Shown: positions 13,110-48,258 of the stretch, piece after piece
Layout: every line of letters begins with the position of its first letter
How positions within the stretch are numbered: position 1 is the stretch's first letter
NCBI GenBank assembly: GCA_958296025.1
Contig: OY282430.1
Span: forward strand, 186,001-250,000
Length of the DNA stretch: 64,000 nucleotides
Origin: an uncultured Pseudomonadales bacterium
GTDB taxonomy: Bacteria; Pseudomonadota; Gammaproteobacteria; Pseudomonadales; Azotimanducaceae
Direction: 5' to 3'
Position numbers and translations under genes: made by a program
The notes under the pieces: model-generated
The model's database searches: none
What the model was told of the DNA's origin: nothing
The model's input: the letters and a program-made list of their open reading frames with translations, nothing else

Positions 13110-14405
13110 TTAAACGTAGAACGCCCGCATGGGCGTTTGATGCAGCTTCAGGGGTTCGCCCTCGGTGCAGATCATGGCGTCGCCATATACATGCCAAGGC
13201 GGGCCGCCGGGGGCGATGAAGAACGGCTGGTTGTAGGCCAACATGTTCGGCGCTAGGGTGATGTTGTCGTGCCAGAAGGAGGTTTCGTGCTCCCCGGCTT
13301 GGAAGCCGAACAGGGTAGTGATCACGCCGTCGGAGGCCTGCTTGGTGTGTTCCGCGCACTGCTCGTCCAAGCCCTTCACGGTGGCGCCGGGCCGGTACTT
13401 GGTCAGCAGGTGGGCATAGACGTCGTCGCACAGCGCGAGGTCCGCCAGGAACTGCTCGCCCGGCTCGCCCAGCACCACGGGCACCGTTAGCTGAGTGAAA
13501 TAGCCCTTGTAGTTGGAGGTGACCTCGGGAATGATGACATCGCCTAGCTGCAAGGTGCGGGCGGTGCGCGGGTCTAAGAAGACCTGGGAGCGGCGGCCCC
13601 GCCAAGGCCCGGTGGCCAGCAATTGCTGGCCACCCGGGGGAGCCCCGGCCTCCGTGCAGGCTTGGTCCATGGCGAAGAACAGGTCCCAATCCGTGTTGCC
13701 CACTTGGGCGGCGGCGATCATGGCCTGGATGCCTTTGTCCGCGCAGTAGGCGGAGCGGCGCAGGAATTTCACCTCCTCGTCGCTTTTGAGGTACCGCAAC
13801 TCCAGGAACAGCCGCTCCGCATCGACGAAGCTGGCATTCGGCAGTTCCCGCTGCATGGCCAGCAGCACTTCAGCCGGCAGCACCCGGGGCGAGACCAAGC
13901 CGATTTTGCCCTTGCCCAGCCCCATCTTCCGCAACTGCCGGGCGATGGCCGGGCCGTGGTCGTTGGCGTTGCGGGTGCCGGGCCGCACGCTGGATTTGAT
14001 GTACTCGAACTCCACCGTGCCGCGACTGACGAAAGGCGGCGTCATGCCGCCGTGCTTGGCGGGCACGATGGGCGTTCCCTGCTTGGGGAAGATGACGTAG
14101 GTGGGCTCCCAGTCGATATCCACGCCGACGTAGCGCAGGTTGCCGAGTTCGCCTTCGCACCAATCCCGATTGCCGCCGACCACCAGGCAGTCGATGCCTT
14201 GCCGCTCCATGCCGGCGCGGATGTTGCGGTAGCGCCGGTCGTATTCGGCTTGGCTGAAGAGCAAATCCCCGGCGATGCCCGCGTCCAGTTTGACGGTCGA
14301 TGCCGGAGCTTGAGCGGGTGTGGCGGCCTGGACGCCCATCGCAGAGACGGCACCGGCGGCGGCTGTGCCAGTGGCCAAGGTCTTGATGAAATGACGGCGT
14401 TCCAT
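13110..14405 (-). CDS. Tat-exported M24 (creatinase / Xaa-Pro peptidase fold) protein, probably metal-independent
   Basis: M-E-R-R-H-F-I-K-T-L-A-T-G-T-A-A-A-G-A-V opens a Tat signal. The rest (431 residues in all) shows the two-domain pita-bread architecture: creatinase-like N-domain (...YDRRYRNIRAGMERQGID) and catalytic-like domain from about residue 210. In metallo-aminopeptidases the first ligands fall in a D-A-G...D-I-T-R stretch. Here that region reads P-E-V-T-S-N-Y-K-G-Y-F-T-Q-L-T-V, so the second Asp is Gln and the first is not conserved. This points to a creatinase- or ectoine-hydrolase-like C-N hydrolase. It is divergent from pobA. Confidence 0.75.
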   Translation of the reverse strand: MERRHFIKTLATGTAAAGAVSAMGVQAATPAQAPASTVKLDAGIAGDLLFSQAEYDRRYRNIRAGMERQGIDCLVVGGNRDWCEGELGNLRYVGVDIDWEPTYVIFPKQGTPIVPAKHGGMTPPFVSRGTVEFEYIKSSVRPGTRNANDHGPAIARQLRKMGLGKGKIGLVSPRVLPAEVLLAMQRELPNASFVDAERLFLELRYLKSDEEVKFLRRSAYCADKGIQAMIAAAQVGNTDWDLFFAMDQACTEAGAPPGGQQLLATGPWRGRRSQVFLDPRTARTLQLGDVIIPEVTSNYKGYFTQLTVPVVLGEPGEQFLADLALCDDVYAHLLTKYRPGATVKGLDEQCAEHTKQASDGVITTLFGFQAGEHETSFWHDNITLAPNMLAYNQPFFIAPGGPPWHVYGDAMICTEGEPLKLHQTPMRAFYV

Positions 14406-23938: not shown

Positions 23939-24340
23939 GCGCCAAGGTCCGCGATGGAGCGCCGTCGGCCTTGGTTTCTCAACCATGTTTTCCTCTAGGC
24001 TGCGCTGAACCAGGAGGCCATTTTAGCAGTCACGAAACTCTTGGAGTTCAAGCAACGTCCGTATGCAAGGCGAAAGCCCAACCGGATTAGACTTCCTGTG
24101 GGGCTGACTTAGCTTGCGCTTGATGTGGCCCTAGCAATAGCGCCATTAAATGGCGGCCTGGCGAAAACTTGGTTTCGGTGCCTTGGCTGGACGCGGTGCC
24201 TCTGCTTGAACCTGACTGTGCCGCGGCCTATCATCACTCGCCAATTTCGGCTGGCGTTGTTCTCCCCAGCCGCTTTTTGGCTGGGCAGATGCGCCGTTCC
24301 CACCGAGGGGTTCGCCTCTAGGCCAGCATTGGAGGGCGAC
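23939..24340. promoter_or_regulatory. 402-base divergent intergenic region (TonB receptor / aminotransferase)
   Basis: It must contain the promoters of both flanking genes. GGAGGG at 24331-24336 is the ribosome-binding site of the aminotransferase. The frame open upstream of that gene (from 24125) lacks a signal or domain and is not counted. I see no clear operator or hairpin. Confidence 0.4.
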
Positions 24341-25738
24341 ATGTACGACCTTCCCGGTCCCCGCAGCCGGGCGCTGCTGGCGCGGGGCCTGCCCCATCTG
24401 CGTGACGGCAAGCGGTATGAGGCCGCCAGCCAGCGCAGCGCCGCCAAAGGCCATGTGCCGCCGGCTCAGGTCATTGTCGATCGGGCGGAGGGGGATTACG
24501 TCTGGGATCTGGACGGCAATCGCTACATCGACTTTCAGAACGGCTGGGCCACCAACCCTCTTGGCAACTGCCATCCGGAGATCATCGAGGCGGTGCATCA
24601 GGCGCAGCGGCGTTACGGCTACCACTGGGAGCATCCCCTGCGCATCCCCTTGGCGGAGAAGTTGGCGGCGTTGATGCCGGGCCAGGCGTTGCCGCGCTTC
24701 AGTTTTGAGGTCTCCGGCACCGAAGCTGCGGAAGCCGCAGTGCATCTGGCGTTGTGCCACATGCAGCGGCGCTACGTCATCAGCTTCACCTCCGCCTTCC
24801 ACGGCGAGAGCTTGGGCACCAAGATGATCAGCGGCTACGGCAGCGCCAACAACCTCTACATGGAGGGCTGGGCCGGAGGCGTGATCAAGGCGCCCTATCC
24901 CTACTCCGAGGGCGTTCCCGCCAACATGACCGAAGAGCAGTACGTTGACTACTGCCTTTGGTATCTGGATACCCACATTCCCGAATATCTGGTTCCGCCG
25001 GAGAACATCGCCGCCATTCTCATCGAACCCGGCTTGGCCGAGGGCGGCAATTGGATTCCCAGCTTGACGTTCATGCAGGGCATCCGCCGCCTGTGCGACA
25101 AGCACGGCTGGCTGATGATCGCGGACGAAGTGCTCACCGGCTTGGGGCGCACCGGCAAGATGTGGTCGGTGGAGCACTACGGCCTAGTGCCGGACATCTT
25201 GGTGGCCGGCAAGAACCTTTCCGGCGGCATCGAACCCTGCGCCGGCGTGGCCGCCAAGGACGACATCTTGGGGGACAACCCCCGAGCCAGCGGCGGCGGC
25301 ACCTTCGCCGGCACCCCGGCCGGTTGCGCCGCCGCCTTGAAAACCTTGGAGATCTACGAACGGGACAACATCGTGGCCTCCGCCGCCCATCTAGGCGAAG
25401 TCGCCGCCAAGCGCATGGCGGACTGGCCGGCCCGCTACCCCATCGTCGGCCAAGTGCGCACCCTCGGCTTGCTGATGGGCGTCTCCTTCAATGCGCAGGA
25501 TGGTCAGGAGGACGACGCGCATGTGGCCCGCACCGTCCGCGACGAGATGCTCAAGCGCGGCGTCTGGGCGATCTGCGAATTGGAGCGCCAAGTGCGCATG
25601 TACCCCGCCCTGAACATGGACGAAGCGGTGCTGCGGCGCGGCCTCGATCTTATGGAGGAGTCCATCGATCAAGTGCAGCGCCACGGCGCCACCGTCGGCG
25701 ATTATCCGCCCATGCCCAGCGGCGTCGTCGGCTTCTGA
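24341..25738 (+). CDS. Class III pyridoxal-phosphate aminotransferase
   Basis: Four hundred and sixty-five residues, fold type I. W-D-L-D-G-N-R-Y-I-D-F near the start, the PLP-phosphate region V-S-G-T-E-A-A-E-A-A, I-A-D-E-V-L-T-G-L-G-R-T-G-K-M-W with the PLP-pyridine Asp, and the Schiff-base Lys in L-V-A-G-K-N-L-S-G-G are all present. T-F-A-G-T-P-A-G-C-A-A follows. The sequence belongs with omega-aminotransferases and glutamate-1-semialdehyde-type enzymes, but the amino donor and acceptor cannot be deduced. ATG 24341 has GGAGGG. It stands alone, between a divergent TonB receptor and the first defence island. Confidence 0.9.
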   Translation: MYDLPGPRSRALLARGLPHLRDGKRYEAASQRSAAKGHVPPAQVIVDRAEGDYVWDLDGNRYIDFQNGWATNPLGNCHPEIIEAVHQAQRRYGYHWEHPLRIPLAEKLAALMPGQALPRFSFEVSGTEAAEAAVHLALCHMQRRYVISFTSAFHGESLGTKMISGYGSANNLYMEGWAGGVIKAPYPYSEGVPANMTEEQYVDYCLWYLDTHIPEYLVPPENIAAILIEPGLAEGGNWIPSLTFMQGIRRLCDKHGWLMIADEVLTGLGRTGKMWSVEHYGLVPDILVAGKNLSGGIEPCAGVAAKDDILGDNPRASGGGTFAGTPAGCAAALKTLEIYERDNIVASAAHLGEVAAKRMADWPARYPIVGQVRTLGLLMGVSFNAQDGQEDDAHVARTVRDEMLKRGVWAICELERQVRMYPALNMDEAVLRRGLDLMEESIDQVQRHGATVGDYPPMPSGVVGF

Positions 25739-25884
25739 GAATGCATTAAGGCGAAGTGATCGCGCCCAGCTTTTTGAGTATCTCCTTGCGACAAAGTTTC
25801 TTCTTCAAGAGGTGTCTTCTGCTGGATGCGGTTTAGGCAGCGGCGCAGAGACTCCAGTTTTTCCGCAACAATTAGCCGATCCAT
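25702..25884 (-). pseudogene. Truncated HepT (HEPN) toxin
   Basis: It starts M-D-R-L-I-V-A-E-K-L-E-S-L-R-R-C-L-N-R-I-Q-Q-K-T-P, the normal N-terminus of HepT/DUF86 proteins. After ~33 residues the similarity ends, and the frame runs on antisense to the aminotransferase 3' end. The HEPN catalytic R-x4-6-H and Tyr lie further on in the family and are lost. It begins inside the stop region of the MntA gene, the usual coupling. The toxin is therefore dead and was cut where the island meets the aminotransferase. Confidence 0.75.
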
Positions 25885-26258
25885 GCCGCCCGCCTCTCTG
25901 CGAGGATTCTCTCCCGCAGCGGAAGGAAGTCGGCGCTGTCGATGAGATGCCTTGTCAACAACTTGGCGTAGGTTTCGTCATCGCCCAACAGCCTTTTTCC
26001 TTTGAAAATCTCTCCTAAAAGCGGTTCGCCGGCGCTGTGCAAATCGATGATATCGACCGGACGGCCAAATTCCGCTCCTATGGCGCCCATGAGTTCCAGC
26101 TTGAGGCCGCTTGGCAATGGGCCGTCGCCCAGCAGCGCCAAGTCAATGTCGCTGTCTGCGGAGGGAGTGCCGGCAGCATGCGAGCCAAATAGTATGGCTA
26201 GCCGGATTTGCGGGCAGCGGCCCAGCAACTGGAGCAATTTTTCATGGGAAACAAGCAT
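25872..26258 (-). CDS. mntA: MntA-type nucleotidyltransferase antitoxin
   Basis: Minimal nucleotidyltransferase of 128 residues. The active-site motif G-S-H-A-A-G-T-P-S-A-D-S-D-I-D-L-A and a third acidic residue in V-D-I-I-D-L are present. In MntA/HepT systems it AMPylates the HepT toxin. Here the partner that follows is only a fragment, so this is an orphan antitoxin. A start at 26282 would add eight residues. It looks intact and may still be expressed. Confidence 0.83.
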   Translation of the reverse strand: MLVSHEKLLQLLGRCPQIRLAILFGSHAAGTPSADSDIDLALLGDGPLPSGLKLELMGAIGAEFGRPVDIIDLHSAGEPLLGEIFKGKRLLGDDETYAKLLTRHLIDSADFLPLRERILAERRAAWIG

Positions 26259-26281
26259 GACGGCATTGTAGCGACTCCTCA

Positions 26282-26494
26282 TCAGGACTCAACGGGCGTC
26301 GGGACCCGGTAGGGGAGACTGCGGCGTCGCCGACCAACGCGGCTACGACCTGCACCCACGGAGTGTCTTCGGTGGTCATCGCGTCTTCGATCCATTGCAG
26401 GTATTCGGTGAAGATCGATTCCATGTCCTGCTGACCGCTCTGGTAGCGGGCGCGTTTGAGCGGTTCGGCCAAATTGGAATGCGCCAGCCACGCT
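26282..26494 (-). pseudogene. Unidentified protein fragment in the defence-gene graveyard
   Basis: The frame encodes K-L-R-Q-L-E-A-W-L-A-H-S-N-L-A-E-P-L and Y-L-Q-W-I-E-D-A-M-T-T-E-D-T-P-W-V-Q-V-V-A-A-L-V-G, which reads like the C-terminal helices of a larger protein. There is no good start. Its upstream part runs antiparallel in frame to the decayed RelE-helicase. I do not recognise the family. Position between two defence remnants suggests it is another. Confidence 0.4.
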
Positions 26495-26867
26495 TCAAGC
26501 TGGCGCAGCTTGCGGCGCTTCGGCGGGGCTGTTGTCTTGTGGCGCACACACCTGCATTGCACCGGTCTCGGGGTTGACATCGCAGCGACGGCGCGTGGCC
26601 CAGTGGTAGGCGTCGTCATGCTTATCCGCCCAACAGCATGTGAATGTCGCCCCGCGCCGGCTTCAAGACGATGGCGCGATAGCTGCCGTTGATGCGCAGC
26701 GAACGCATGTTCGGGTCTTTCGCGCCGTGGATGCGCTCGTAGTTCAAGCCGCTGGCGGTGGGGTTGCTGTTGAAGCGGGCGATGAGCGAACGCACATTGC
26801 GCTGCTGCGCTCCCGGCAGGCGGGCGAAGGCGGACAGGAAGTCCACGGACATGGCCATGTTGGTCAT
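26495..26867 (-). pseudogene. RelE-like N-terminal domain of a UvrD-type helicase, frameshifted and truncated
   Basis: The first frame (26867 to ~26625) gives F-L-S-A-F-A-R-L-P-G-A-Q-Q-R-N-V, Y-E-R-I-H-G-A-K-D-P-N-M-R-S-L-R-I-N and Y-R-A-I-V-L-K-P. After I-H-M-L-L the frame breaks. One base off, it continues W-A-D-K-H-D-D-A-Y-H-W-A-T-R-R-R-C-D-V-N-P-E-T-G-A-M-Q-V and stops near 26495. Together these match the N-terminal module of long UvrD-like helicases that begin with a RelE-like domain. The helicase body is gone. Confidence 0.75.
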
Positions 26868-26995
26868 GGCGACTTATCCCTCAGCAGAGAAAAACAGCTT
26901 GTAACCCGTCTGCCGGGCAACCCAGTAGCGTGAGAGGAGGCTGCGTGAGAGCAAGTAGTACCCGCCAAGCGCGGGAATCAGGAGGAGGCCGAGGT

Positions 26996-27208
26996 TCACC
27001 GCTCGCGAGACGGGCCTTGGCGCTCGGGTGCCGAGCCTCCGGGATCTTGGTGTCCGCGGCCCTCGCTCTGCAAGACTCGGCCCATCTTCTCCATCATATC
27101 CTGCGCGGCCTTGCTGCGGAGGAGCTCTCGTTCGTTCACATAGAGGCCCCCTAGGGGCGTCACATGCACCTTCACGGTGTCTTCGTCCGGCTCGCTACGT
27201 TTGCTCAT
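26996..27208 (-). CDS. Small hypothetical protein between helicase remnants
   Basis: From ATG 27208 (AGGAACAG upstream) the ~70-residue product reads M-S-K-R-S-E-P-D-E-D-T-V-K-V-H-V-T-P-L-G-G-L-Y-V-N-E-R-E-L-L, then an Arg-, Gly- and Glu-rich tail. The first half looks folded, while the tail may be frameshifted. No family is recognised. It lies between a helicase C-terminal fragment and the RelE-helicase fragment on the same strand, so it may be a leftover small subunit of the same lost system. Confidence 0.45.
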   Translation of the reverse strand: MSKRSEPDEDTVKVHVTPLGGLYVNERELLRSKAAQDMMEKMGRVLQSEGRGHQDPGGSAPERQGPSRER

Positions 27209-27261
27209 CTGTTCCTCCAAGTCTCCACGGCGGCAATCTAGCACAGGGCGCACCGTCGGCG

Positions 27262-27768
27262 CTATGGTTGGCCTAGGACGCTGTTGATGATGCGCTCGGC
27301 TCCTTCGCTGTCATCGCCGACCGAGCAAACCTGCCAGCCCGCCTGCTCGAACAGGGCTGCCTTCTCGGCTTGCTCGCCTTGGAGCAGGGCCACCCGGTGC
27401 TTCGTCCAAGCGAGCTCGGCCTCGGCCAGCACACGGCCCGCTTCGTCGGCAAGTTCGAACCCTACCTCTGGGGCCGGCAGGCCGTTCGCCGCCCATTGCT
27501 GCATCGCGCCGTGCAGCGCTTCGACGGCCAGTTCCATCGCCATGTCCCACGCGGTGGACTCGGTTGGCGGCCTGTCGTCCGGCGGTGGTTGGCCAGCGGT
27601 GGCGAACTCCGGGTAGCGGCCCCCCTGCACGCCTTGCTGCGTGATCCACCAAGCGTTGGGGAGGAATTGCAGCAGGTTAAATAGGCGCAATGCGCCGTTC
27701 CAAGCAGGGCGGTAGTCGGCGTGGTGGCAGCTTGCGTCGTCATCGCGCAGGTGGAGGATGGCCAGCAA
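27262..27768 (-). pseudogene. C-terminal fragment of a large protein, probably a defence-type DEAD/DEAH helicase
   Basis: A stop codon (27769-27771) precedes the first usable codon, and the frame opens in the middle of a fold: A-L-R-L-F-N-L-L-Q-F-L-P-N-A-W-W-I-T. It later reads V-G-F-E-L-A-D-E-A-G-R-V-L-A-E-A-E-L-A-W-T, then E-Q-A-G-W-Q-V. A D/E-rich strand followed by A-E-A-E-L-A-W and an A-G-W-x-V end is a pattern I associate with the C-terminus of long DUF1998-like or restriction-helicase proteins. The family name is tentative. It is probably not functional alone. Confidence 0.5.
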
Positions 27769-27921
27769 CTAAGTGGGATCGGGCGGTTCCAAGCCTGATC
27801 CGCCGAGGCTCGCCGCGCCAGCTATAATCCGACTCACGAACCTAGCCGTTGGGAGTTATATACTTGAATCCCCAATCTCATTGTGCGCTTACCCTTGGGA
27901 GGCAAATCATTTCCGGTCAGA

Positions 27922-28965
27922 CTAAACGCCATACCTGCGCCGCCAATACGCGGCCCATTGGTCCGCCGACTCCCTACATTTAGCCTCCACTGAATCGACC
28001 AATGTAGCAGGTGCAACCACGGCAAATTGTTCCCTCGGCTGCTTTAGCACAGTTTCCATAACGTCAGCCACCGTCTTGGTTTCAGGGAACCGCTCCTTCA
28101 GCCCCGGCGAGGTGATTATCTCCCGGTAGGCAAGGTTCTCTGCAGGAACCACAACCACCACTTTAGCCTCAGAGACACCGAGTTCTGCCTTCTGCACCAT
28201 CCGGTCGGCCAACAGCCTTTGCCGCATAATCTGATAAAAGGGCTCGTAGAGGAATTCATCCATTTTCGGGGCGGTGGCCGGGTTAAAGGAAGAAGCGTCG
28301 GCATAGTACCAGGGCGAGTATATCTGCCGCCGGGTCTTCCCCGCTTTGCCCAAGCCCTTGTAAGCGCGTTCCGGCCTACTGCAAAAATACTGCTCAACGT
28401 ATTTCCATTCCAGCAGGTAGGCCCGTTTCTGTCCGGTTTCCGTTTCAGCCACCAAAAAGGCGTCAATACTGGTGGTTTGAGTGCCCCGAGTTCTCCGACC
28501 CTCCAGAGAACGCTCCAAGCCAATCCACTCGAATTCCACGGGCGACTTCTTGCCCTGATAGCTAATGTCAACTATGCTGCGCACGTCATCGTCTATGCTC
28601 TTTAGCGTCGCAAGCAACGCGCCGGGAATCTCAATCAGGGGGAGCAAGAAGTTCACGCAGGCAACTTGCGAACTCGCCATATTCCGCGTCGGCCCGTCCA
28701 CTTTACTATTGTCGCCGCTCCGAGGAGATTTCCACCATTTAATAGCTCTGTCCTTGAAGAACCGCATCGCGCCAGCGGCATTTCTTATTGAGGGATAGAG
28801 ATTATCAACTTCGCTGCCAAGAGCCAGCAGGTGCCGATGGCGAGTACCTTTATCATCCGACGGATTACGACCTTCAAGACTGATAGTGTCCGAACTATCC
28901 CGAAAATTGCCCTGATGCTTTCTTGTCGAATACTCAAACTTTGGTTCCCTGCTTTGGCCGGTCAC
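27922..28965 (-). CDS. PGN_0703-type putative restriction endonuclease, PD-(D/E)XK
   Basis: A 347-residue nuclease. M-A-S-S-Q-V-A-C-V-N-F-L-L-P-L near residues 96-110 is the N-terminal hallmark of the PGN_0703 group. The catalytic core shows Asp168 (S-I-D-A-F-L-V-A) and Glu186/Lys188 (L-L-E-W-K-Y), i.e. D-Xn-E-X-K. It lies 71 bases after the DNA methyltransferase on the same strand and is the last gene of a HerA-NurA-methyltransferase-nuclease set. A likely role is cutting unmodified or HerA/NurA-processed DNA. The protein looks intact, with no internal stop, and has lower GC than the chromosomal neighbours. Confidence 0.75.
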   Translation of the reverse strand: MTGQSREPKFEYSTRKHQGNFRDSSDTISLEGRNPSDDKGTRHRHLLALGSEVDNLYPSIRNAAGAMRFFKDRAIKWWKSPRSGDNSKVDGPTRNMASSQVACVNFLLPLIEIPGALLATLKSIDDDVRSIVDISYQGKKSPVEFEWIGLERSLEGRRTRGTQTTSIDAFLVAETETGQKRAYLLEWKYVEQYFCSRPERAYKGLGKAGKTRRQIYSPWYYADASSFNPATAPKMDEFLYEPFYQIMRQRLLADRMVQKAELGVSEAKVVVVVPAENLAYREIITSPGLKERFPETKTVADVMETVLKQPREQFAVVAPATLVDSVEAKCRESADQWAAYWRRRYGV

Positions 28966-29036
28966 ACCAATCCTCCTTGGTTCTGCTGTACCACCAGGAA
29001 CGCCACCGCCTCGCGCAGCGTCATCCCCTTCCGCCC

Positions 29037-30167
29037 CTATCTCGGCTCTAGTATGAGGTCAATTTCGCAGTTCGCCCGCTTGGGTGCGCCACCGCGGCTG
29101 TAGGCCTTGGTCTGGCATTGTGCTGGAAGCGGGCGTGATTGCTCGACGATGCGCTTTTCCGGAAAAACACTCTCCAGCGTGGCCTTGGTATTTCGGTAGG
29201 TGGACTCTCGCTGGTCGGTACGAACATAGATCACCGCATCGTCGGCTAACAGCCGTCTGCACTTGCGAAATACCTGATCAAGTAGCGCTCTGTATCGACT
29301 TTCGTTGCCAAATTTTCCGCCGTAGTGATTGCTTACATTTGCATTAGGACGCATCGGGCCGCCTAACAGCCATAGCCTGAGCCACTGGTCGTAATAATAG
29401 TTAGTGACGCCGAGATAAGGCGGCGAGGTGATAAGAAGTCTTGCCTTAGTCCGTTTCCCATCCTCGACTTCCCGCACAAACCGGGACAGTTGCTGCCGAC
29501 TGTCGCCCAGATACACGGCGGCCTTGCCGGCCTGTGGCGTACCGTGAACATATCGCCAGCCGATGCGCCTTTGGAGGAACGCCACCAAGTCAACTTCAGG
29601 TGGCTCCATTTCTCTTTCGTGCCACCAGCGGATGCAGTAGTCCGGTGCCATTGCGGTGCTTTGCCGCATCTGATTGGATAAGGCTCTACCTTGCTTGCCG
29701 TGCAGCGAAATAAGGACAAGGGCCATCAGAACCCGGTCTGCATTTGCTCGCCGCCAATCAAGATTTCTGCGTGCCGCCAGAAGGAACTCACACACCTTTG
29801 GCGAGTAGCAATGATGGAAGAATGCCGGCAACGCATCCGCGTCGGTACGATACCTGCCCGCGTTCTCAGCTAGGAACTCCAACTTGGCTGTAACGGCTTC
29901 AAGCCGAGCCGGCTTGAGCTTCGCGTTGGCGTAGACGTAGCCTAGGGGATTGATATCGACACCAATGGCGGAGCGTCCCTTGATGGCGGCACTGAACATA
30001 GCCGATCCTCGGCCGGCGAAGGGGTCAACAACGGTGTCGCCTACGCCAGTGTACTTGGCGATTGCCCAATCGGTGAACGTTGTGGGGAACATTCCGTAGT
30101 ACGGTCCAATGCCTGCCCAGCGGGATGCAGCTGTCCCATATCGCGTAGCTCCGTTCGCAGCTTTCAT
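29037..30167 (-). CDS. DNA methyltransferase (amino-methylating, S-P-P-Y type)
   Basis: Three hundred and seventy-six residues. The SAM-binding motif I is D-P-F-A-G-R-G-S at ~48-55, followed by G-V-D-I-N-P-L-G. The catalytic motif IV is T-S-P-P-Y-L-G-V near residue 247. Order I then IV fits an N6-adenine or N4-cytosine enzyme. It overlaps the NurA stop by 4 bases (ATGA) and is followed by a PD-(D/E)XK nuclease, so the two would form a modification/restriction pair inside a HerA-NurA cassette. The target sequence is unknown. Confidence 0.88.
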   Translation of the reverse strand: MKAANGATRYGTAASRWAGIGPYYGMFPTTFTDWAIAKYTGVGDTVVDPFAGRGSAMFSAAIKGRSAIGVDINPLGYVYANAKLKPARLEAVTAKLEFLAENAGRYRTDADALPAFFHHCYSPKVCEFLLAARRNLDWRRANADRVLMALVLISLHGKQGRALSNQMRQSTAMAPDYCIRWWHEREMEPPEVDLVAFLQRRIGWRYVHGTPQAGKAAVYLGDSRQQLSRFVREVEDGKRTKARLLITSPPYLGVTNYYYDQWLRLWLLGGPMRPNANVSNHYGGKFGNESRYRALLDQVFRKCRRLLADDAVIYVRTDQRESTYRNTKATLESVFPEKRIVEQSRPLPAQCQTKAYSRGGAPKRANCEIDLILEPR

Positions 30168-31519
30168 GATCGCGGAAACATCTTGTGGAGAATCTCCGCC
30201 CCTGCCTTGAGCGGTATGGCCGCATGTGCGTGCGCCCTAACCAGCGGCGCAAAACCGTCCTCGTACAGATAGGTCGATAGATCGTCCATGATGTCTAGGG
30301 CTTCGCCCAGTCGCGGGAACGCTTCCGCGTCAACGCAATCCAAATTGCGTCCGGTGTCGTTCACGATGGGGGTAGTGATGACGGAGTGCTGACCTTTGCT
30401 GTTCTTGTAAAGAACCTTCCTGCCGTAGTAAGTCTGCCGCCCGAATGCGTTCGATCCTGCGGGGCGATGGAGAATGTGTTGACTGATGTATTCTGACGTC
30501 GGCGCATATGCGGTTGCATCAGGTAAGGCTTGCCTGGGGCCATCGTCGTCCGACCAGTCCAGTAACTTCAAGTGTTCCATGAAGTGCCCGGTCTTTTCGA
30601 CGCCCACAAGCAAGACCCCGGAGTGGCCGGTGCCTATTTGGATACTGTGGATGCGTTCTACTTCGCGCTGCATCCAAGTGCGCATCCAAGCAGATGACCC
30701 AAATACCGCCAGCGGACCGTCCATGATGAAAGCGGTGTCGCGGATGAAGGCCGGGTTTCCGGCCTGCTCACAGTAACGCAGTATGTTTGCTAACGTAAGC
30801 TGTTCAGTGACCTGTTGGAACAGAGTATAGATTTGTCCATTCGGCCCGAGGTCATCAAACCTCTCGTGAATGCCCAATATATCTGTTTGGTAGAGGACCT
30901 CCCGCCGAGAGCAGGGGCATCTGGCTTCGCCAGCTGCAGGCGGTGTTACGTGCCCATTTCCGACTTCCTTCGGACAGTCTTCTACAGGACAGACAACTTG
31001 CTGCGCCGGTCTCCCACGAATTATGGCAGCCAGCGTCTCTAGCAAGGTTTCGTGACCGCTTTCGATTCGACCCTGCAAGGTTTGGTAGATCGTCCGACGA
31101 AAAAAACGTTGAGGCGAATCGTCAGGGTGGTCTCGCTCCGTCACGTTGCACCCAGGTAGAACGGCATCCATCGCATCGCATTTCTCCATGCGCCGGATAT
31201 CGCTGGGACGTGGTATCCACCTTGGGTCTTGGTTTCTGATGGCCTGCAGATCCAACACCACTGCCGCAATTCGCATCAGAGCCGCCTCCGCACCGGGATA
31301 GCCGTTGCGAACCGCAGTGCGGACAGTGGAGCCGTCTATAGCAATAATCCTAGTAATACGGTTTCTGTGGCGGTCCGGATCGACAATCGCCGGCAACACA
31401 TGCTGGTCGTTGGAGTCTTTGGTGCTAATCGTACCGTGGAAGTCACGGACGCTCTGGCTGGTTGTCAAGCCGGGCAGTGACTCGCCGCTCGCAAACTCAT
31501 CCTTGTAGGGCATGGCCAC
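30164..31519 (-). CDS. nurA: NurA-domain nuclease
   Basis: A 451-residue protein. The conserved NurA motif appears as I-I-A-I-D-G-S near residues 54-60, with Asp as a metal ligand. The later I-M-D-G-P-L-A-V-F and the C-terminal H-A-H-A-A-I fit the NurA fold. In archaea NurA works with the HerA hexamer to resect DNA ends, and in bacteria the pair occurs mostly in defence loci. The start codon follows a GGGGGG run. The stop overlaps the methyltransferase start, and HerA is upstream on the same strand with 124 bases between. It is longer than typical archaeal NurA (~350), with an inserted Cys-rich segment (CPVEDCPKEVG...CPCS) that could bind zinc. Confidence 0.85.
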   Translation of the reverse strand: MAMPYKDEFASGESLPGLTTSQSVRDFHGTISTKDSNDQHVLPAIVDPDRHRNRITRIIAIDGSTVRTAVRNGYPGAEAALMRIAAVVLDLQAIRNQDPRWIPRPSDIRRMEKCDAMDAVLPGCNVTERDHPDDSPQRFFRRTIYQTLQGRIESGHETLLETLAAIIRGRPAQQVVCPVEDCPKEVGNGHVTPPAAGEARCPCSRREVLYQTDILGIHERFDDLGPNGQIYTLFQQVTEQLTLANILRYCEQAGNPAFIRDTAFIMDGPLAVFGSSAWMRTWMQREVERIHSIQIGTGHSGVLLVGVEKTGHFMEHLKLLDWSDDDGPRQALPDATAYAPTSEYISQHILHRPAGSNAFGRQTYYGRKVLYKNSKGQHSVITTPIVNDTGRNLDCVDAEAFPRLGEALDIMDDLSTYLYEDGFAPLVRAHAHAAIPLKAGAEILHKMFPRS

Positions 31520-31643
31520 CCCCCGGCCAAACAGGAAGTCCTAATACGAACCGATAGCTCGCATACGGTATCACCTCGAACATCAACCCCTCTGGAGATC
31601 TCATAGGAGCAGCTCGCTAGACACAACGACCATCAAGGTCAAT

Positions 31644-33806
31644 CTAAGTCGCCTGCTGTTGAGGTGGCGCGAAGCGGTGTATCTGCACCGGCATGGTATA
31701 GGGGCTTGAGTGCGTCCGCACTCGCACGAATCCGGCTTCGTTGGTCTTGCGGATACCCGCCGTGAAGTCGGAGAAATCGTAGTATCTATCCAGTTCTCTC
31801 GTTTCTCCGGAACTATTTATGTAGGAAAGAAACCAATTCTCGGTATTCGTGAGAATGTTAGCTTGCACAGAGGATGGCTCTTGTGTGGAATAGACTAAGC
31901 CGATGTTGAACTTAGCTCCCTCTTTTGCGACGCGAGGCCAGACTTCTGTGGTATCCCGCTCATTTCCTTTTGGCAGCAGAGTATGAGCTTCTTCGACGTA
32001 TACTATGACGGGGGGTGGCTTCTGGAGATTTCCGTCTTCGTCAACTCTTGGATTGACGAAGTGACGTTGTTGCCTCTCGAAGATACGCCACATTATCTGC
32101 TTCGCCGACTGGTTGTTCATATCTGGGCTCCCTAGCGCTTGATCGAGGATTACCAAGCGTCCCTTTTCCAAGTCATCGAGAACGCGTTGTATAGGATCCT
32201 CTTGATTTTGCGTGGGGCTGTGCCAGTTGCGGCACTCCCGAATAGCTTGTATGCCTCGAGTGTTTTCGAAAATGCGGAGCAGGTTGTTGATGCGATCGTC
32301 GTGCCAGTCGCGACGATCGTGTTTTGATAGGTAGTCTTTATTGAAATTTTTGTAACCATGATCGCCCTTCCAAGCGGCGAATGCGCGGCAAAAGTTGGCG
32401 GCTTGGCCCCAAGTTAACTTGTCTTCCTTCAACGCATACACAAAATGCTGCATATGCTCATCCGATTCCATAGCCTTCCTGATTTCTGCGCCAAACAGCC
32501 CGCGGATCGATGGAGCTCCCTGCGCCGCCGCGAAACCAGCACTGTGTAAGATAGCTCTATAGAAAAAAATAGCACGGTTGTAACGGACGCTAGTGCCCCA
32601 GTCGCTCACATCGGGAGGAGCGGTGATCTCGGTACTAACGAAAGCTTGGATATAGCCACCGCTCTCGGTCAGCAGACGCTGATTTACGAGATCCTTGCCT
32701 GCATAAAGACTAGCCAATGCTTCGTCATAGTCACCTTTATCGGGGCTATTTTGCGTGGGGATGCTCCCGCCATAGAAGTTGACCTTCATGACGCGGCGGT
32801 AAGGATCTCCCTCACGCTCGATGAGACTGTGAATCACGACATCGCCCTTTACGGACTGGTCAACGTTATTTAAGTTGCGCAGAGCTCCTTGGTCTTGAGC
32901 ATTCGGGTTGGCATACTCGCCTTCTGGGTCGATGATGAGCTGGGCGACGCGAATTGGGTTGTCTTTATCCAGTCGCATCCGAAACACGGCGTCGGCTATG
33001 GTCTTGACGGTGTTGGATTTGCCGGTGCGCGTCATCCCGAACAGGGCTGTGCGTTTGGCAATGATGTCGGCGGTAGTCATTTCTATCGGAACGGCCTCGG
33101 GTGCATTGGCGTCGTAGGCACTGGCTGAGTACCGCAAGCGCCCAATTTCAATACGCGGTTGGCTAGAACTCTCCCCTTTGGCGTGGTTGACGATGCGTTG
33201 CAGGCCAGCCCCGGCCGGCTTGTATATCTTCATACCTTGCCCAGCGTAGAAGTTCTCGATATCGCCACCGAAAGCGAGCTCGTGGAGCTCAGTGTGCGGA
33301 TTTTTTCGGGGACGGAATGTGCCTAGAATTCGACAATGAGCACCAGCATAGCGCATCTGGTGCAGCGTAAGTACGTCGGTGGTGTTGTCCTCATCGTAGT
33401 TGGACGGTGAATCCGAGGCCCGTTTGGTGGCCTCAAGACGTTTCTGCTGAACCTCAATGTCGTTGGGCAATTTGCTAGAGCCGAGGACACGGAGAAGAAT
33501 AAACTGAGCGTCGGGGTCGCTTAGTTCGGGCATAGCGTCCGGCTTCATGCGGGTAGCGATGAGCAGGCACCCGTGAGGCACACCTCCAACCTCCTTTTTC
33601 ATGGAGTCGTGGATGAGTACCTCGGCGGTCTCGTAGTCCATGCTGATGAGGTCCCCGACGTAGCGATCCTCTTGCACGGCGTCGCTGAGGTTCTGGATTA
33701 CCTCACTCTCGTGGGACTCCTCTTGGTGGGCTCGTTGGGCGCTGGCGACGGCGGTGCCACCTTCGACCGACCGGGCGCCCGTCCTATAGGGGTCAATGGC
33801 GGTCAT
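31644..33806 (-). CDS. herA: HerA-like ATPase / DNA translocase
   Basis: About 720 residues from ATG 33806. Walker A is [10 protein letters not shown] near residue 257. A conserved [10 protein letters not shown] follows, and Walker B is [12 protein letters not shown] near residue 600. An arginine-finger-like R-V-A-K-E-G-A-K-F and S-T-Q-E-P-S-S-V downstream match HerA/FtsK-family translocases. The N-terminal ~200 residues include a HAS-barrel-like region. It should form a hexamer that pumps DNA into NurA. The start lies inside the decayed type IIG gene fragment, so its original promoter may come from that gene. Confidence 0.88.
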
Positions 33807-34345
33807 GGGGTGGGCCCAGGTCGAACGGAGCACGATGCACGACTTCGTACTGCCGCATGACGGGGAACTGGACGCGGTAGATAGTTTGGAGCTCGTCCAA
33901 GGTTAGGTTAAGGGCTTTGGCGGCTAGGACGTCGATTTCGACTAGGGCTTGCCGGCGGGCGTAGTCGGTGCGTAGGGCGTGGTCTTGGTGCCATTTTGGG
34001 GTTAGCTGCGCCCAGTCGTTGGGGAGGCGCGGGTCTGGGCGTGTCCAAGCGTCTTGGCGGAAGGCGTGGATGGCGGTCATTGTGGTGCCGTTGGCTGATG
34101 GCCGTGGAGACATGCAGGTATCGTACCACAAGTCGGCGTAGTGGTTAGTTAGGCAGCATAGACGTAAGGCTCTGATTCTTAAGGCGGCTCGGATGCGGGG
34201 GGGCGCTGTCTTCGGTGAGGATGGGGAGGCGACTTAGCCAAGATAGGTTTATCTCGCGGTGCCGGTTCTCTTGGCGAGAAAGTCCAAGACGATAGACATG
34301 GATAGGGCCGCGAAGTCGAGGAAGTCGCCTACTCGTTGTGAATGC
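33793..34345 (-). pseudogene. C-terminal remnant of an Eco57I-like type IIG restriction-methylation enzyme, in three frames
   Basis: Read on the minus strand in three frames, the pieces join as V-G-D-F-L-D-F-A-A-L-S-M-S-I-V-L-D-F-L-A-K (34340 to ~34265), [19 protein letters not shown] (~34265 to 34205), and then [13 protein letters not shown]. The last frame runs to [19 protein letters not shown] and [13 protein letters not shown] near 33830. These are the closing segments of large type IIG enzymes. One break lies in a run of seven C (34199-34205). The N-terminal nuclease and methylase domains are missing. It overlaps the herA start. Confidence 0.8.
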
Positions 34346-34543
34346 CGGTTAGGGGCATGGCTGGCGCGTCCGCGGCTCGGTAGTGTGACAGTATGCTACG
34401 AACATGCCGGGCGAAAGGTGCCAAGTGCTCACGAAATTGGCGGCAGGCAGGCAGCCGCACCTTGCCTGAACAGTTTCGGGGCCTTGGCTGGCCCCGCGCC
34501 CTTCCTTGAAGGGGGCTGCTCCACTGCCTATGATCGCCCCCCA

Positions 34544-36163
34544 ATGATGAAGCAATACGACGCCATCGTCATCGGCGCCGGGCACAACGGCCTGTGCAAC
34601 GCCGCCTATCTGGCCAAGGCCGGGTTGGATGTGCTGGTCTTGGAGCGCAATCCTCATATTGGTGGGGCCAGCGTCAGCCGGGAGCTTTACCCCGGATGGA
34701 CCTACTCCAACTGCTCCTACGTCTGCTCCCTGCTCCGGCCGGAGATCTCCCGGGATCTGGAGCTGCCGAAGCATGGCCTGCAGGTGGTGCCCTACCACGG
34801 CGGCGTCACCTTCACCCAAGATGGGGACTACTTCGGCAACTACCCCGACGAGGAGCGTCAGCTTCGGGAGATGGCCCGCCACTCCCCGCGGGACGCCAGC
34901 GCTCATCAGCGCTTTGAAGTGGATGTGATGAAGCAGACCCGGCTGATACGGCAATTTCTGCTGAAGACGCCGCCGGACCCCACCTCCTTCAAGCCCAAGG
35001 ACTTGAAGGGCCTGTTGGAACTGGCCGCCGCCTTCACCGAGCTGGGCGAGGAGGGCCTGCTGGACACCCTGCGCTTCTGGACCCTGAGCATTGGCGACTT
35101 TTTGGACGAATACTTCGAGACGGACGTCATCAAGGCGCATATGTCCGGCAGCGGCATCATCGGCACGGCCTTGGGCGTGTATTCGCCGGGCACCGCCTAT
35201 GTTCTGCTGCATCACTACATGGGCGAAGTCGATGGCAGCGTCGGTGCTTGGGGCTTCGCCCGGGGCGGCATGGGGGCGGTGGCCAACGCACTCGCCAGCA
35301 GCTTCCTCGCCCACGGCGGCGAAATCCTCTGCGCTGCGGACGTGCGGCGCATCATCGTGGAGAAGGGCCGGGCGGTTGGCGTGGCGCTGGCTAATGGCGA
35401 TGAGCATCGGGCCGGCATCGTCGTCTCCAACCTGGACCCCAAGCGCACCTTTCTGCAGTGCTTCGATGCCGGGGACCTGCCGGCGGAAGTGCGCACCCGC
35501 GCCAAGAACTTCAAGATTCGCGGCTCCTCCGGCAAGCTGAACATCGCGTTGGACGGCCTGCCAACTTTCCCGGCCTTGCCGAAGCACAGCCCGTTGATGC
35601 TGGCGGACATGCACTTTTCGGACTCCTTGGAGCGGCTGGAGCGGGCCTATGACGACTGGAAGGCCGGAACCTGGTCCCAGGATCCCTATCTGGACATGCT
35701 GATCCCTTCCACCGTCGATCCAACCATGGCCCCGCCGGGCAAGCACATGATGACGGTGTTCGTGCAGTATTGCCCTCCGACCTTGGCCAGCGGCCCTTGG
35801 ACGCCGGAGGCCAGGGACGCCTTCGGCCAAACCGTGATCGACCAGATCGCCCAATACAGCCCGGACTTCAAGAGCCTGATTTTGGACTGCGAGGTGCGCA
35901 CCCCCAGGGAGTTGGAGGACGAAGTGGGGCTGACCGAGGGCAACATCTTCCAAGGCGAACTGACCTTCGACCAACTGCTGTTCAACCGCCCCTTCCCCGG
36001 CTGCGCCCAGTACCGCGGGCCGTTGCCGGGCCTGTACCTGTGCGGTTCCGGCACCCATCCCGGCGGCGGCGTGATGGCCGCGCCGGGCGCCAACGCCGCC
36101 CGGGAAATTCTCCGCGACCTGCGCCGCCCCAACACGGTGCCGCCGGGCTATCCCAATGACTGA
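34544..36163 (+). CDS. Phytoene-desaturase / PYROXD2-like FAD-dependent oxidoreductase (paralogue 1)
   Basis: From ATG 34544 the product is 539 residues, with an N-terminal FAD motif (A-I-V-I-G-A-G-H-N-G-L-C-N-A-A-Y-L-A, then V-L-E-R-N-P-H-I-G-G-A-S). A second FAD-binding block near the C-terminus reads G-L-Y-L-C-G-S-G-T-H-P-G-G-G-V-M. This is the carotenoid-desaturase-like amine-oxidase superfamily, subgroup of uncharacterised bacterial and mitochondrial proteins such as PYROXD2. The substrate is unknown. It is the first gene of a tight + strand operon with a paralogue and a GcvT-like gene. The upstream frame to 34259 crosses pseudogene DNA and is not part of the gene. Confidence 0.88.
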   Translation: MMKQYDAIVIGAGHNGLCNAAYLAKAGLDVLVLERNPHIGGASVSRELYPGWTYSNCSYVCSLLRPEISRDLELPKHGLQVVPYHGGVTFTQDGDYFGNYPDEERQLREMARHSPRDASAHQRFEVDVMKQTRLIRQFLLKTPPDPTSFKPKDLKGLLELAAAFTELGEEGLLDTLRFWTLSIGDFLDEYFETDVIKAHMSGSGIIGTALGVYSPGTAYVLLHHYMGEVDGSVGAWGFARGGMGAVANALASSFLAHGGEILCAADVRRIIVEKGRAVGVALANGDEHRAGIVVSNLDPKRTFLQCFDAGDLPAEVRTRAKNFKIRGSSGKLNIALDGLPTFPALPKHSPLMLADMHFSDSLERLERAYDDWKAGTWSQDPYLDMLIPSTVDPTMAPPGKHMMTVFVQYCPPTLASGPWTPEARDAFGQTVIDQIAQYSPDFKSLILDCEVRTPRELEDEVGLTEGNIFQGELTFDQLLFNRPFPGCAQYRGPLPGLYLCGSGTHPGGGVMAAPGANAAREILRDLRRPNTVPPGYPND

Positions 36164-45606: not shown

Positions 45607-45942
45607 TTGGAAATCCAGATCAGAACGCGCCGGCTTGACAAAGTCCTCAACTCGGAGGACGAGATGCGCAAGAAGTATGGCGGTAAGATGGCGAAGGTGC
45701 TCCAGAGCAGGCTTGCCGTGCTGGGGAATGCTCCCAATCTATCCGCCGTGCCAACCGGTAAGCCGGCGAGACGCCACCAGCTGAAGGGCCGGCGGGCCGG
45801 CCAGTATGCGGTCGATCTGGTGCAGCCTTACCGGCTGATCTTTGAACCGGCCCACAGGCCGCTGCCAGAACGCCCCGAAGGTGGCGTGGATACGGACCGC
45901 GTCACGGCCATTACGATTATCGAGGTGGTGGACTACCATTGA
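45607..45942 (+). CDS. higB: HigB-type toxin (killer protein, RelE superfamily)
   Basis: TTG start, 111 residues. L-N-S-E-D-E-M-R-K-K-Y-G-G-K-M-A-K-V-L-Q-S-R, R-R-H-Q-L-K-G-R-R-A-G-Q-Y-A-V-D-L and P-Y-R-L-I-F-E-P-A end with I-I-E-V-V-D-Y-H. This is a typical HigB arrangement with a C-terminal Tyr-His pair. The antitoxin gene begins 14 bases downstream, toxin first, which is normal for higBA. It probably cuts ribosome-bound mRNA. Confidence 0.88.
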   Translation: MEIQIRTRRLDKVLNSEDEMRKKYGGKMAKVLQSRLAVLGNAPNLSAVPTGKPARRHQLKGRRAGQYAVDLVQPYRLIFEPAHRPLPERPEGGVDTDRVTAITIIEVVDYH

Positions 45943-45956
45943 CCACAGGAGTGAAC

Positions 45957-47039
45957 ATGGCGAAGACACACAGATACCGGCCTGACTACGCAGCCTCGCC
46001 GGGTGCTGTTCTCGAAGAGCATCTGGCAGCACACGGCTTATCCCACGCCGAATTTGCCCGTCGGTGCGGGCGGTCGGCAAAGCTCATCAGCGAGATTGTG
46101 GCGGGCAAGGCACCGGTCGAGCCCGTCACGGCGCTTCAGTTCGAGAAAGTGCTTGGCATGGACGCCCGCATTTGGCTGGGCATTGAGGCGGACTATCGCC
46201 TCCACCAAAAAAGAGCTGCGGAAGCTGACGACAAAACGGCGGCGGAGTGGGCGAGGCAATTTCCCATCAATGAGCTGGCGAAGCGCGGTGTTATTGACAA
46301 GCCGGCCTCTGGAAGCGATGCCGTTTCCCAACTGCTATCGTTTTTTGGCGTGGCGTCTGTGGATTCCTGGCGCGGTCGATACAGCGCGGGGAGCATCGCG
46401 TATCGTCATTCGCCTACCTTCGAGAGCGACAAGTTCGCTTTGGCGACGTGGCTTCGGCTGGCGGAAATAAAGGTGGCCGACCAAGCGCCCGCAGACTACC
46501 ATGAGTCCGCGTTTAAGGCCGCTTTGGGCCAAGTGCGCCTTTTGACGCGCGCAGAGGTCATACCAGCGCTGGAAAAGGCTGGGCAACTGTGCGGACAAGC
46601 AGGCGTTGCGCTGGCACTTGTGAAGCCCTTCCCTAAGATGCGCTTGAGTGGCGCCGCATGGTGGCTTGCTCCCCGTCGGCCCATCATCGCCCTGAGCGCC
46701 AGGCATGGGAGCAACGACCACCTGTGGTTCAGCTTCTTCCACGAGGCCGCGCACATTTTGCTGCACAGCAAGAAGAGCGTGTTCATCGATAGCGCGAACG
46801 GCGGCGAAGACGAAATCGAGGCGGAGGCAAACGAGTGGGCTGCCAACTTCCTTGTGCCCAAGAGAAATTGGCAGAGCTTCGTGAGCAACGGCATCTACAA
46901 CGGTCCTAGTATCCGTCAGTTTGCGGAGGAGCAAGGCATCGCACCGGGCATTGTGGTCGGCAGCCTTCAACATCAGCAGCTCCTACCTTGGAAAAAGCTG
47001 AACAACCTTAAGGTCAGGCTGAAATGGGCGGACGAGTGA
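45957..47039 (+). CDS. higA: HigA-type HTH antitoxin fused to ImmA/IrrE metallopeptidase
   Basis: ATG 45957 has CAGGAG upstream. Residues ~14-70 form an Xre helix-turn-helix (G-L-S-H-A-E-F-A-R-R-C-G-R-S-A-K-L-I-S-E-I). Residues ~180-340 form an ImmA/IrrE domain with the zinc motif F-H-E-A-A-H-I-L-L-H and a downstream E-A-N-E-W-A-A-N glutamate. The 360-residue protein can bind the promoter and HigB. The protease may cleave a repressor or itself on stress, coupling the toxin to a signal. Confidence 0.9.
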   Translation: MAKTHRYRPDYAASPGAVLEEHLAAHGLSHAEFARRCGRSAKLISEIVAGKAPVEPVTALQFEKVLGMDARIWLGIEADYRLHQKRAAEADDKTAAEWARQFPINELAKRGVIDKPASGSDAVSQLLSFFGVASVDSWRGRYSAGSIAYRHSPTFESDKFALATWLRLAEIKVADQAPADYHESAFKAALGQVRLLTRAEVIPALEKAGQLCGQAGVALALVKPFPKMRLSGAAWWLAPRRPIIALSARHGSNDHLWFSFFHEAAHILLHSKKSVFIDSANGGEDEIEAEANEWAANFLVPKRNWQSFVSNGIYNGPSIRQFAEEQGIAPGIVVGSLQHQQLLPWKKLNNLKVRLKWADE

Positions 47040-47076
47040 ATCACGACGAAACACTAATAGGCTGCGCTCAACTAGC

Positions 47077-47490
47077 ATGAACATTCGCTTTGAAACTGAC
47101 TCGGATGGGTTCCTATCTCAGGATTGTCCTAGCTGCCGCCAGCGTTTCAAGGTGCTTTTCGGTGCTGGGAGTGAAGCCCCCCTTTCGTTTTGCCCATATT
47201 GTCGGCATACCGGAGAGGATAACTGGTTTACGCAGGAGCAGCTAGACTATGCCAAATCAGTAGCAACTGAAGTTCTTGTCCGTCCACAGCTGGAGCAGCT
47301 CAAGCGCCAAATTGCAAGATCGGCGAGCGACATGGTTGACGTTCAGGTCACCGAAGGTATTCCTGAAACAGCGGTGTCTCCGGTTGAGACGATAGATAAT
47401 TTGGATTCGATATATTTTTCGTGTTGTGCCGAGACCATCAAGGCGAAACAGCATGAGAGATACTACTGCATAATTTGCGGAGGAAAATAG
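47077..47490 (+). CDS. Small zinc-ribbon protein, partner of the TIR protein
   Basis: One hundred and thirty-seven residues. Two Cys pairs, C-P-S-C and C-P-Y-C, lie in the first 50 residues, and C-C...C-I-I-C lies near the end, giving two likely zinc sites. The middle is helical and charged. GC is lower than that of the flanking genes. The stop is three bases before the TIR gene, so the two form a tight pair. It may sense a phage component or act as adaptor or inhibitor of the TIR enzyme. No named family is recognised. Confidence 0.65.
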   Translation: MNIRFETDSDGFLSQDCPSCRQRFKVLFGAGSEAPLSFCPYCRHTGEDNWFTQEQLDYAKSVATEVLVRPQLEQLKRQIARSASDMVDVQVTEGIPETAVSPVETIDNLDSIYFSCCAETIKAKQHERYYCIICGGK

Positions 47491-47493
47491 GAG

Positions 47494-48258
47494 ATGACAA
47501 TGGACGGGAAGCTCATCTTCCTCAGCCATAAAGGCTCAGACAAGAATATGGTGTTGGAGTACAAGGGCATTCTAGAGAAGCTAGGTTACAAACCTTGGCT
47601 GGATGAAGAAGCAATGCCGGCGGGCGCACCGCTGGAAAGAAGTCTGTTAAAAGGAATGCAGGAATCCTGTGCGGTTATCTTTTTCGTTACAGCTAATTTC
47701 AAGGACGAAGGATTCTTGGAGACGGAGATTAACTACGCAGTGGCCGAGAAGAGGGAGAAGGGGGATAGATTCGCCATTATTACGCTGATTCTTGACGATT
47801 CCGGAGGGGAACCCGATATTGAATCCGTGGTGCCGCCTTTGCTAAAGCCGTATGTCTGGAAACAGCCAAAGAGCCAGCTCCAAGCATTGGAAGAGATACT
47901 CCGGGCACTACCAAAAGATATTAGAAACGACTCCGCTAACTCGAATACGCCTAGTTCTAATCTTGTGAGCCGGCAGGAAATTGGATCAGAGCTTTCGGAA
48001 GACGCGAAATCTGTCCTGAAGGAGGCGGCAACGGGCAATGGCCAAGTGCTTTGTATTCGGACTTTTGGAGGGGTCGGGGTTAGGGCTGGCGGCAAGTCCC
48101 TAGTGGGCGATGATGGCCCACGAGAGGCAGCTCGTTGGAAAGCAGCAGTCGAGGAATTGCAGCGTCATCGTTACATCAAAGACATAGGCTACAAGGGCGA
48201 AGTCTTCGAGCTTACAAAGGCGGGCTGGGATATGGCAGATTCGCTTTTGGACGCCTGA
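47494..48258 (+). CDS. TIR-domain protein with C-terminal winged-helix-like region
   Basis: ATG 47494 with GGAG upstream; 254 residues. The TIR domain runs ~7-115: L-I-F-L-S-H-K-G-S-D-K at strand A, then the W-L-D-E-E box and C-A-V-I-F-F-V-T. F-L-E-T-E-I-N-Y-A has two Glu (75 and 77), one of which is the candidate NADase catalytic residue. After a Ser/Asn-rich linker, ~165-254 looks like a winged helix (V-L-K-E-A-A, R-H-R-Y-I-K, V-F-E-L-T-K-A-G). Bacterial TIR proteins deplete NAD+ or make cyclic ADP-ribose isomers during phage defence. Confidence 0.82.
   Translation: MTMDGKLIFLSHKGSDKNMVLEYKGILEKLGYKPWLDEEAMPAGAPLERSLLKGMQESCAVIFFVTANFKDEGFLETEINYAVAEKREKGDRFAIITLILDDSGGEPDIESVVPPLLKPYVWKQPKSQLQALEEILRALPKDIRNDSANSNTPSSNLVSRQEIGSELSEDAKSVLKEAATGNGQVLCIRTFGGVGVRAGGKSLVGDDGPREAARWKAAVEELQRHRYIKDIGYKGEVFELTKAGWDMADSLLDA

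Follow-up and report, generated by a model that had tools for sequence, protein, structure and literature searches.

A mobile HerA-NurA-methyltransferase gene set with TdpAB-like folds in a variable defence site of an uncultured Pseudomonadales bacterium

We analysed a stretch of 64,000 nucleotides, hereafter the window, from an uncultured Pseudomonadales bacterium of the Azotimanducaceae (assembly GCA_958296025.1, contig OY282430.1, positions 186,001 to 250,000). The window contains a cassette of four genes, which encode a HerA-type translocase, a NurA-type nuclease, a DNA methyltransferase and a PD-(D/E)XK nuclease:

31644-33833, minus strand: HerA-type ring ATPase/DNA translocase, with GTG 33833 or the internal ATG 33806 equally possible as its start
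30164-31519, minus strand: NurA-type nuclease with a Zn-ribbon-like cysteine insert, recognised by its fold and by relatives that match PF09376
29037-30167, minus strand: DNA methyltransferase (PF01555, N6_N4_Mtase)
27922-28965, minus strand: PD-(D/E)XK nuclease of the REase-ARP/PDDEXK_13 type, PGN_0703-like (PF22558 and PF20796)

The original prediction had described four minus-strand genes in tight order, with intact catalytic motifs and wrecked genes on both sides, and this description holds. All four open reading frames are open at these places, the NurA and methyltransferase genes are joined by the ATGA overlap noted previously, and 71 bp separate the methyltransferase stop from the nuclease start. 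The HerA and NurA genes lie 124 bp apart; their counterparts in the nearest relatives adjoin each other with little or no gap. A motif check identified intact catalytic motifs in HerA (GMTRTGKSN, a Walker motif at residues 266-274, and VEEAH, Walker B), NurA (IDGS, MDGPL and EKTG), the methyltransferase (DPFAGRG and TSPPY) and the nuclease (SIDA and EWK). The wrecked neighbours are scraps of a type IIG and a ZorE-type protein, and the cassette has a guanine-cytosine content of 55%, against about 65% in the genes on either side.

For HerA, we identified the DUF87/HerA central domain in Pfam (PF01935, E 5e-9), with scores far below the cut-off for the NCBIfam HerA models. A profile of the HerA family searched against the PDB placed TdpA (8wet) first, with an E-value of 4e-39 and the next match at 1e-19, and an AlphaFold2 model (predicted local distance difference test, pLDDT, 85) had its best Foldseek match in TdpAB (8wet_A, E 1.5e-25, versus 3e-21 for the best match outside Tdp). 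The window NurA has no Pfam match of its own, the PF09376 NurA model included, and PDB sequence searches with NurA, as a single sequence or as a profile, returned chance matches only, so that a fold search was needed. Its AlphaFold2 model (pLDDT 87) was closest in Foldseek to 8wfd_G, from TdpAB (E 1.7e-8, 13% identity), followed in order by the NurA proteins of Deinococcus radiodurans, Thermococcus kodakarensis and Sulfolobus. Within the window NurA's family, 19 of 53 members match PF09376, some relatives are annotated as NurA, and residues D62, E239, D267, E308-K309 and H316 are invariant across the 53 sequences. HerA, by profile and fold, and NurA, by fold, are thus both nearer to TdpA and TdpB respectively than to any other solved structure. 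SIR2-HerA and DUF4297-HerA are anti-phage defence systems in which a HerA-family ring is likewise combined with a partner effector, but their effectors are unrelated to NurA, they have no methyltransferase, and their structural scores lay well below those of TdpAB.

The methyltransferase belongs to the N6_N4_Mtase family (PF01555, E 6e-12), and carries motif I (DPFAGRG, residue 48) ahead of motif IV (TSPPY, residue 247), an order common to 12 related loci. SPPY-type motifs such as TSPPY suggest N4-cytosine methylation, and the window enzyme is probably of this type. The fourth protein contains REase-ARP (PF22558, E 3e-32) and PDDEXK_13 (PF20796, E 7e-20) matches, in agreement with its earlier placement in the PGN_0703 group. 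In PADLOC 2.0.0, no model matches the window NurA, and the matches to HerA are partial only. We considered and rejected the MADS system (mad1-8), to which the cassette gave only a partial mad8 match in HerA (52 bits) and a weak mad2 match in the methyltransferase (33 bits), with no match to the mad models for the NurA and nuclease genes.

We found the HerA-NurA pair at about 80 loci. These represent more than 15 phyla, and also include a plasmid of an archaeon, prophages and viral contigs. A search with the NurA family identified 74 loci on genome contigs and further genome hits, and added five plasmids together with two records of Vibrio phages. According to the record titles, the hosts belong to the Pseudomonadota, Chloroflexota, Acidobacteriota, Planctomycetota, Deinococcota, Gemmatimonadota, Actinomycetota, Cyanobacteriota, Bacillota, Bacteroidota, Desulfobacterota, Synergistota, Nitrospirota, Nitrospinota, Deferribacterota and several candidate phyla, and one plasmid is haloarchaeal. 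Streptomyces cyaneofuscatus, Pedobacter alluvionis and Roseateles depolymerans are among the hosts that can be cultured. Where the flanks are complete, the HerA gene almost always immediately precedes NurA. The set is mobile, and prophage copies adjoin an integrase. A scan of viral contigs with the NurA alignment gave no confirmed relative; the equivalent scan with HerA identified nine relatives, seven of them with a D12 methyltransferase directly upstream of HerA, and one contig (L139) has a window-type HerA-NurA pair beside phage genes, whose proteins resemble those of L015, a locus described below, at their beginnings. In one Vibrio phage (L011, 1309-3502) HerA is annotated as two open reading frames (1309-2583 and 2570-3502), which may be a frameshift, and in the near-identical phage L010 it is a single frame.

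HerA, NurA and a methyltransferase were identified in the same order as in the window in L012 (Gammaproteobacteria), L013 (Anaerolineae), L014 (Acidobacteria), L015 (Phycisphaerales), and L016 and L118 (both Deinococcota), in each case free-standing among unrelated genes. The NurA-methyltransferase overlap of -4 bp is kept in L012, L013, L014 and L016, and the window's NurA forms one clade, starred in the NurA tree, with L012 to L016.

In the tree as a whole, a methyltransferase gene is present within 300 bp in 63 of the 75 NurA loci, about 72 of which have readable flanks. Methyltransferases occupy 62 of the 144 gene slots that adjoin the pair, versus 10 of the 516 that do not (odds ratio 38, p 4e-36, in a count that ignores kinship). 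By both counts, the linkage of methyltransferase to nuclease that characterises restriction-modification systems extends across the relatives. When the neighbouring genes were clustered, the three largest families were three groups of methyltransferases: a TSPPF-type PF01555 group (42 loci as clustered, among which are a small number of unrelated type III-like enzymes at a greater distance), a D12/Dam-type PF02086 group (18 loci), and the window-type group with permuted TSPPY (12 loci). The methyltransferase lies on either side of the pair, mostly on the same strand and with gaps of -4 to +30 bp. HerA-NurA-methyltransferase is therefore a recurrent unit of three genes, in tight same-strand order, across unrelated genomes. 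Twelve NurA loci have no methyltransferase within 300 bp; three of these (L034, L075, L078) are at contig ends, a type III-like methyltransferase lies about 2.7 kb away in L070, L073 and L079, and one about 1.5 kb away in L082, and the other five (L005, L006, L007, L030, L032) make up a cyanobacterial clade that is discussed below. Relatives of the window methyltransferase on Rhizobium and Bradyrhizobium plasmids (L092, L094) face a convergent AAA-domain protein of about 1400 residues with an overlap of a few bases, and are possibly part of another system with the same type of methyltransferase.

These distributions bear on whether HerA-NurA in this setting resects DNA breaks, as a housekeeping or element-borne repair function, with the methyltransferase an incidental neighbour. 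To our knowledge, the archaeal and Deinococcus HerA-NurA end-processing pairs are not paired with a methyltransferase. They comprise the same two protein families as the cassette, but are chromosomal, linked to Mre11-Rad50 in thermophilic archaea, and less similar in fold. In archaea and Deinococcus, HerA-NurA is known as a classic repair pair (PMC9960219, PMC4351679). Against a repair role here, NurA is patchily distributed, occurring once in the window's genome and as only one short fragment (G775) among 37 relatives; an adjacent methyltransferase is far more frequent than in the background; and the closest folds are those of TdpAB and not those of the repair proteins. We accordingly consider repair a most improbable explanation of the cassette.

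The methyltransferase group switches at least several times on the NurA tree. Such exchange suggests either that NurA/HerA co-adapts to each new mark, or that the methyltransferase is itself the recognition subunit. Co-adaptation would be consistent with the correlated distances that we observed in the window-type and D12 groups, in which NurA, HerA and methyltransferase distances correlate with r of 0.87-0.96 (p 0.0005), including NurA-methyltransferase correlations of 0.90 for the window-type group and 0.92 for D12 (p 0.0005). Parallel distances of this kind are expected if the three genes travel together.

The distribution of the PD-(D/E)XK nuclease is different. The original prediction had grouped all four genes into one system, and had proposed a search for their co-occurrence in other genomes. 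In that search the HerA-NurA-methyltransferase part of the grouping recurs, in unrelated genomes, on mobile elements and at a variable defence site; the fourth gene does not, as a sequence search of the HerA-NurA loci found the nuclease in the window only. In the terms that the prediction had set for its own refutation, the grouping thus fails for the fourth gene alone. If the four genes did form one system, the nuclease would be a site-specific restriction enzyme paired with the methyltransferase, and HerA-NurA would degrade the resulting ends. Its position on the same strand, just past the methyltransferase, and the intact catalytic motifs throughout the cassette fit such an arrangement, as does the occurrence of nuclease-family members in operons with other methyltransferases. 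The window-type operons L012 to L016 and L118 are nevertheless without it, no match was found anywhere in the five genomes that hold L012 to L016 (a search made without a positive control), and none of nine other family members that we checked adjoins HerA-NurA. PF22558 matches were identified in 7 of 398 genomes of the phylum. The relatives of the nuclease in G552 (L097) and on a Phenylobacterium plasmid (L091) lie beside a type III-like Res helicase and Mod, one in L106 lies beside DUF499 and DUF1156 proteins, and those in L107 to L111, among them a second copy at another place in the genome of the window, have mixed neighbours. In the sister genome G776, a strong PDDEXK_13 match, distantly related to the window nuclease, is present in the same insertion site, where HerA-NurA is absent. 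Because the other family members are found in contexts other than HerA-NurA, the fourth gene is probably an exchangeable, optional accessory outside the core, and we regard a four-gene system as unlikely. It is possible that the nuclease cooperates with the core, for example by making ends onto which HerA-NurA could load.

The L106 arrangement recalls the BREX-related/Hma-like systems (a DUF1156 methyltransferase, a DUF499 ATPase and a helicase), which are likewise a methyltransferase-marked form of defence, and in which PD-(D/E)XK auxiliaries occur (PMC12839542). Unlike these, the cassette has no DUF499, DUF1156 or SF2 helicase gene.

Comparison with congeners delimits the insert that contains the cassette:

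25739-34546: variable insert of about 8.8 kb between core genes
24125-25738: aminotransferase, core flank
from about 34547: oxidoreductase, core flank
33793-34131, minus strand: scrap of a type IIG restriction-modification protein, its last 75-100 residues or so (PADLOC REase_MTase_IIG, 1e-16, profile positions 1423-1495 of 1584)
27262-27768, minus strand: C-terminal scrap of a ZorE-type HNH protein (PADLOC ZorE, 2e-13, profile positions 282-361 of 375)

The type IIG scrap is directly upstream of HerA and the ZorE-type scrap downstream of the cassette. The two core flanks are 38 bp apart in the congener L135; in L132 and L134 an unrelated gene lies between them, at a spacing of about 0.9 kb, and in L133 they are separated by a filling of 2.3 kb. 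In L131, from the sister genome G776, a different insert of about 14.7 kb occupies the same site, and contains (2283-14305) the PDDEXK_13 nuclease, an N6_N4 methyltransferase with a partner gene, an nSTAND3-Mrr_cat protein and pieces of a helicase. The site between the aminotransferase and oxidoreductase genes is thus a variable defence site, or hotspot. The window's insert contains neither an integrase nor a relaxase and no attachment repeat, with short chance repeats only around it, and we found no tRNA gene in the window. With neighbours truncated on both sides, the cassette might belong to a decaying island, as a remnant that is dead or dying and has no present function in this strain; all four of its genes are nonetheless full length, with catalytic and family-invariant motifs intact on checking, and we judge this improbable.

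A second defence island lies about 12 kb from the cassette:

45607-58159, plus strand: second defence island, with a HigB-like/HTH-M78 pair
47494-48258: TIR protein
48293-51148: HmaB (DUF1156 methyltransferase)
54839-58159: HmaC (Swt1-HEPN and DUF499)

Genes resembling HEC-01A/B and HEC-04 lie between HmaB and HmaC. The gene after HmaC is not the expected HmaA helicase, and the sequence from 58523 onward looks like an amidohydrolase.

The nearest published operon to the cassette is the tdtA operon of ICETh1 in Thermus thermophilus, in which the same three kinds of protein are encoded on a mobile element of low GC content, adjoined by a type IIG gene (Tth111II) (PMC5365140). By its published description the likeness is one of protein kinds, and the ICETh1 operon differs from the cassette in its gene order and in its shorter NurA (377 residues). 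The type IIG scrap beside the window's HerA may be there by chance, or may represent an old fourth partner. The NurA family was identified in 4 of 111 Deinococcota genomes, and in all four loci a methyltransferase adjoins the pair; none of them could be identified as ICETh1. The Thermus operon has been published as DNA-donation machinery, composed of a NurA-like protein, TdtA (HerA family), an N4/N6 methylase and a type IIG enzyme (PMC5365140). By analogy, HerA in the window would export DNA, which NurA and the methylase would process, and the type IIG scrap directly upstream of HerA fits this comparison. The insert, however, lacks an integrase, relaxase and attachment repeat as stated above, and both the exchange among unrelated methyltransferase groups and the occurrence of the genes in phages, in plasmids and on chromosomes across many phyla fit self-marking better, so that we hold a DNA-transfer machine to be very unlikely.

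We consider it probable, if with some reserve, that the cassette is a methylation-marked, TdpAB-like restriction system with HerA-NurA-methyltransferase as its three-gene core. Tdp consists of a HerA/NurA-like pair, TdpA-TdpB, and the phosphorothioation enzyme TdpC; the phosphorothioate mark restrains TdpAB, and is read by its NurA-like part. Both Tdp and the cassette have a HerA-family ring and a NurA-family dimer tied to a DNA mark. The cassette differs from Tdp in that its mark gene is a base methyltransferase, from three exchangeable groups, and in that its NurA family has about 440-460 residues, versus 358 in TdpB, with a cysteine-rich insert. A phosphorothioation enzyme is absent from the operon, whose four genes are all assigned and whose modification gene is the PF01555 methyltransferase.

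In such a system, the methyltransferase would mark the host DNA, probably as N4-methylcytosine to judge from the TSPPY motif, and the methyl mark would restrain HerA-NurA in the part that phosphorothioate plays in Tdp. A HerA hexamer on a NurA dimer would thread double-stranded DNA, with NurA cutting both strands in passage. The mark would probably be read by NurA itself, or via the methyltransferase as a site-recognition subunit, and unmarked incoming phage or plasmid DNA would be destroyed, while marked host DNA would be spared. The PD-(D/E)XK nuclease could open entry points by cutting, or act as a second line of attack. HerA rings are established DNA translocases (PMC11291478), and HerA-NurA of T. 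kodakarensis cuts both strands of double-stranded DNA exonucleolytically, without producing the overhangs that recombination needs, and its authors propose a role in antiviral defence (PMC12977600). For the window's gene set, the computations establish the fold of the HerA-NurA pair and its recurrent pairing with a methyltransferase, while we infer the sparing of methylated DNA and the antiviral action.

Three observations weigh against a methylation-marked restriction system. The NurA-HerA-methylase operon of Thermus is needed for DNA donation, including its NurA-like and TdtA genes (PMC5365140). In the TSPPF group, the methyltransferase distances barely track those of NurA (r 0.22, p 0.05). 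Finally, a cyanobacterial clade (L005, L006, L007, L030 and L032), mostly on plasmids, has HerA-NurA without a nearby methyltransferase, indicating that a cis-encoded mark is not universal; in this clade the mark may be of another kind, or its gene may lie elsewhere. In the cyanobacterial plasmids L005 to L007, an HTH gene is found upstream of the HerA-NurA pair.

The role of HerA-NurA in bacteria is a matter of debate, and the pair has mostly been treated as repair machinery. We found no description of HerA-NurA-methyltransferase as a defence set in the literature searched, mainly open-access papers. The exchange of the methyltransferase partner between groups points to self/non-self marking, and gives HerA-NurA a directly testable role. 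More broadly, the gene set may represent a widespread class of restriction-modification, in which a TdpAB-like HerA-NurA engine operates with a mark swapped among at least three groups of base methyltransferases, and of which Tdp is one branch; for this extension we see the case as evenly balanced. If it is true, a single DNA-shredding engine works with different marks, and the phosphorothioate-based Tdp and the base-methylation systems would be united under it. Defence annotators would gain a family that is now missed, with its NurA outside the PADLOC models and its HerA matched only in part, and the Thermus transjugation operon would merit a fresh look.

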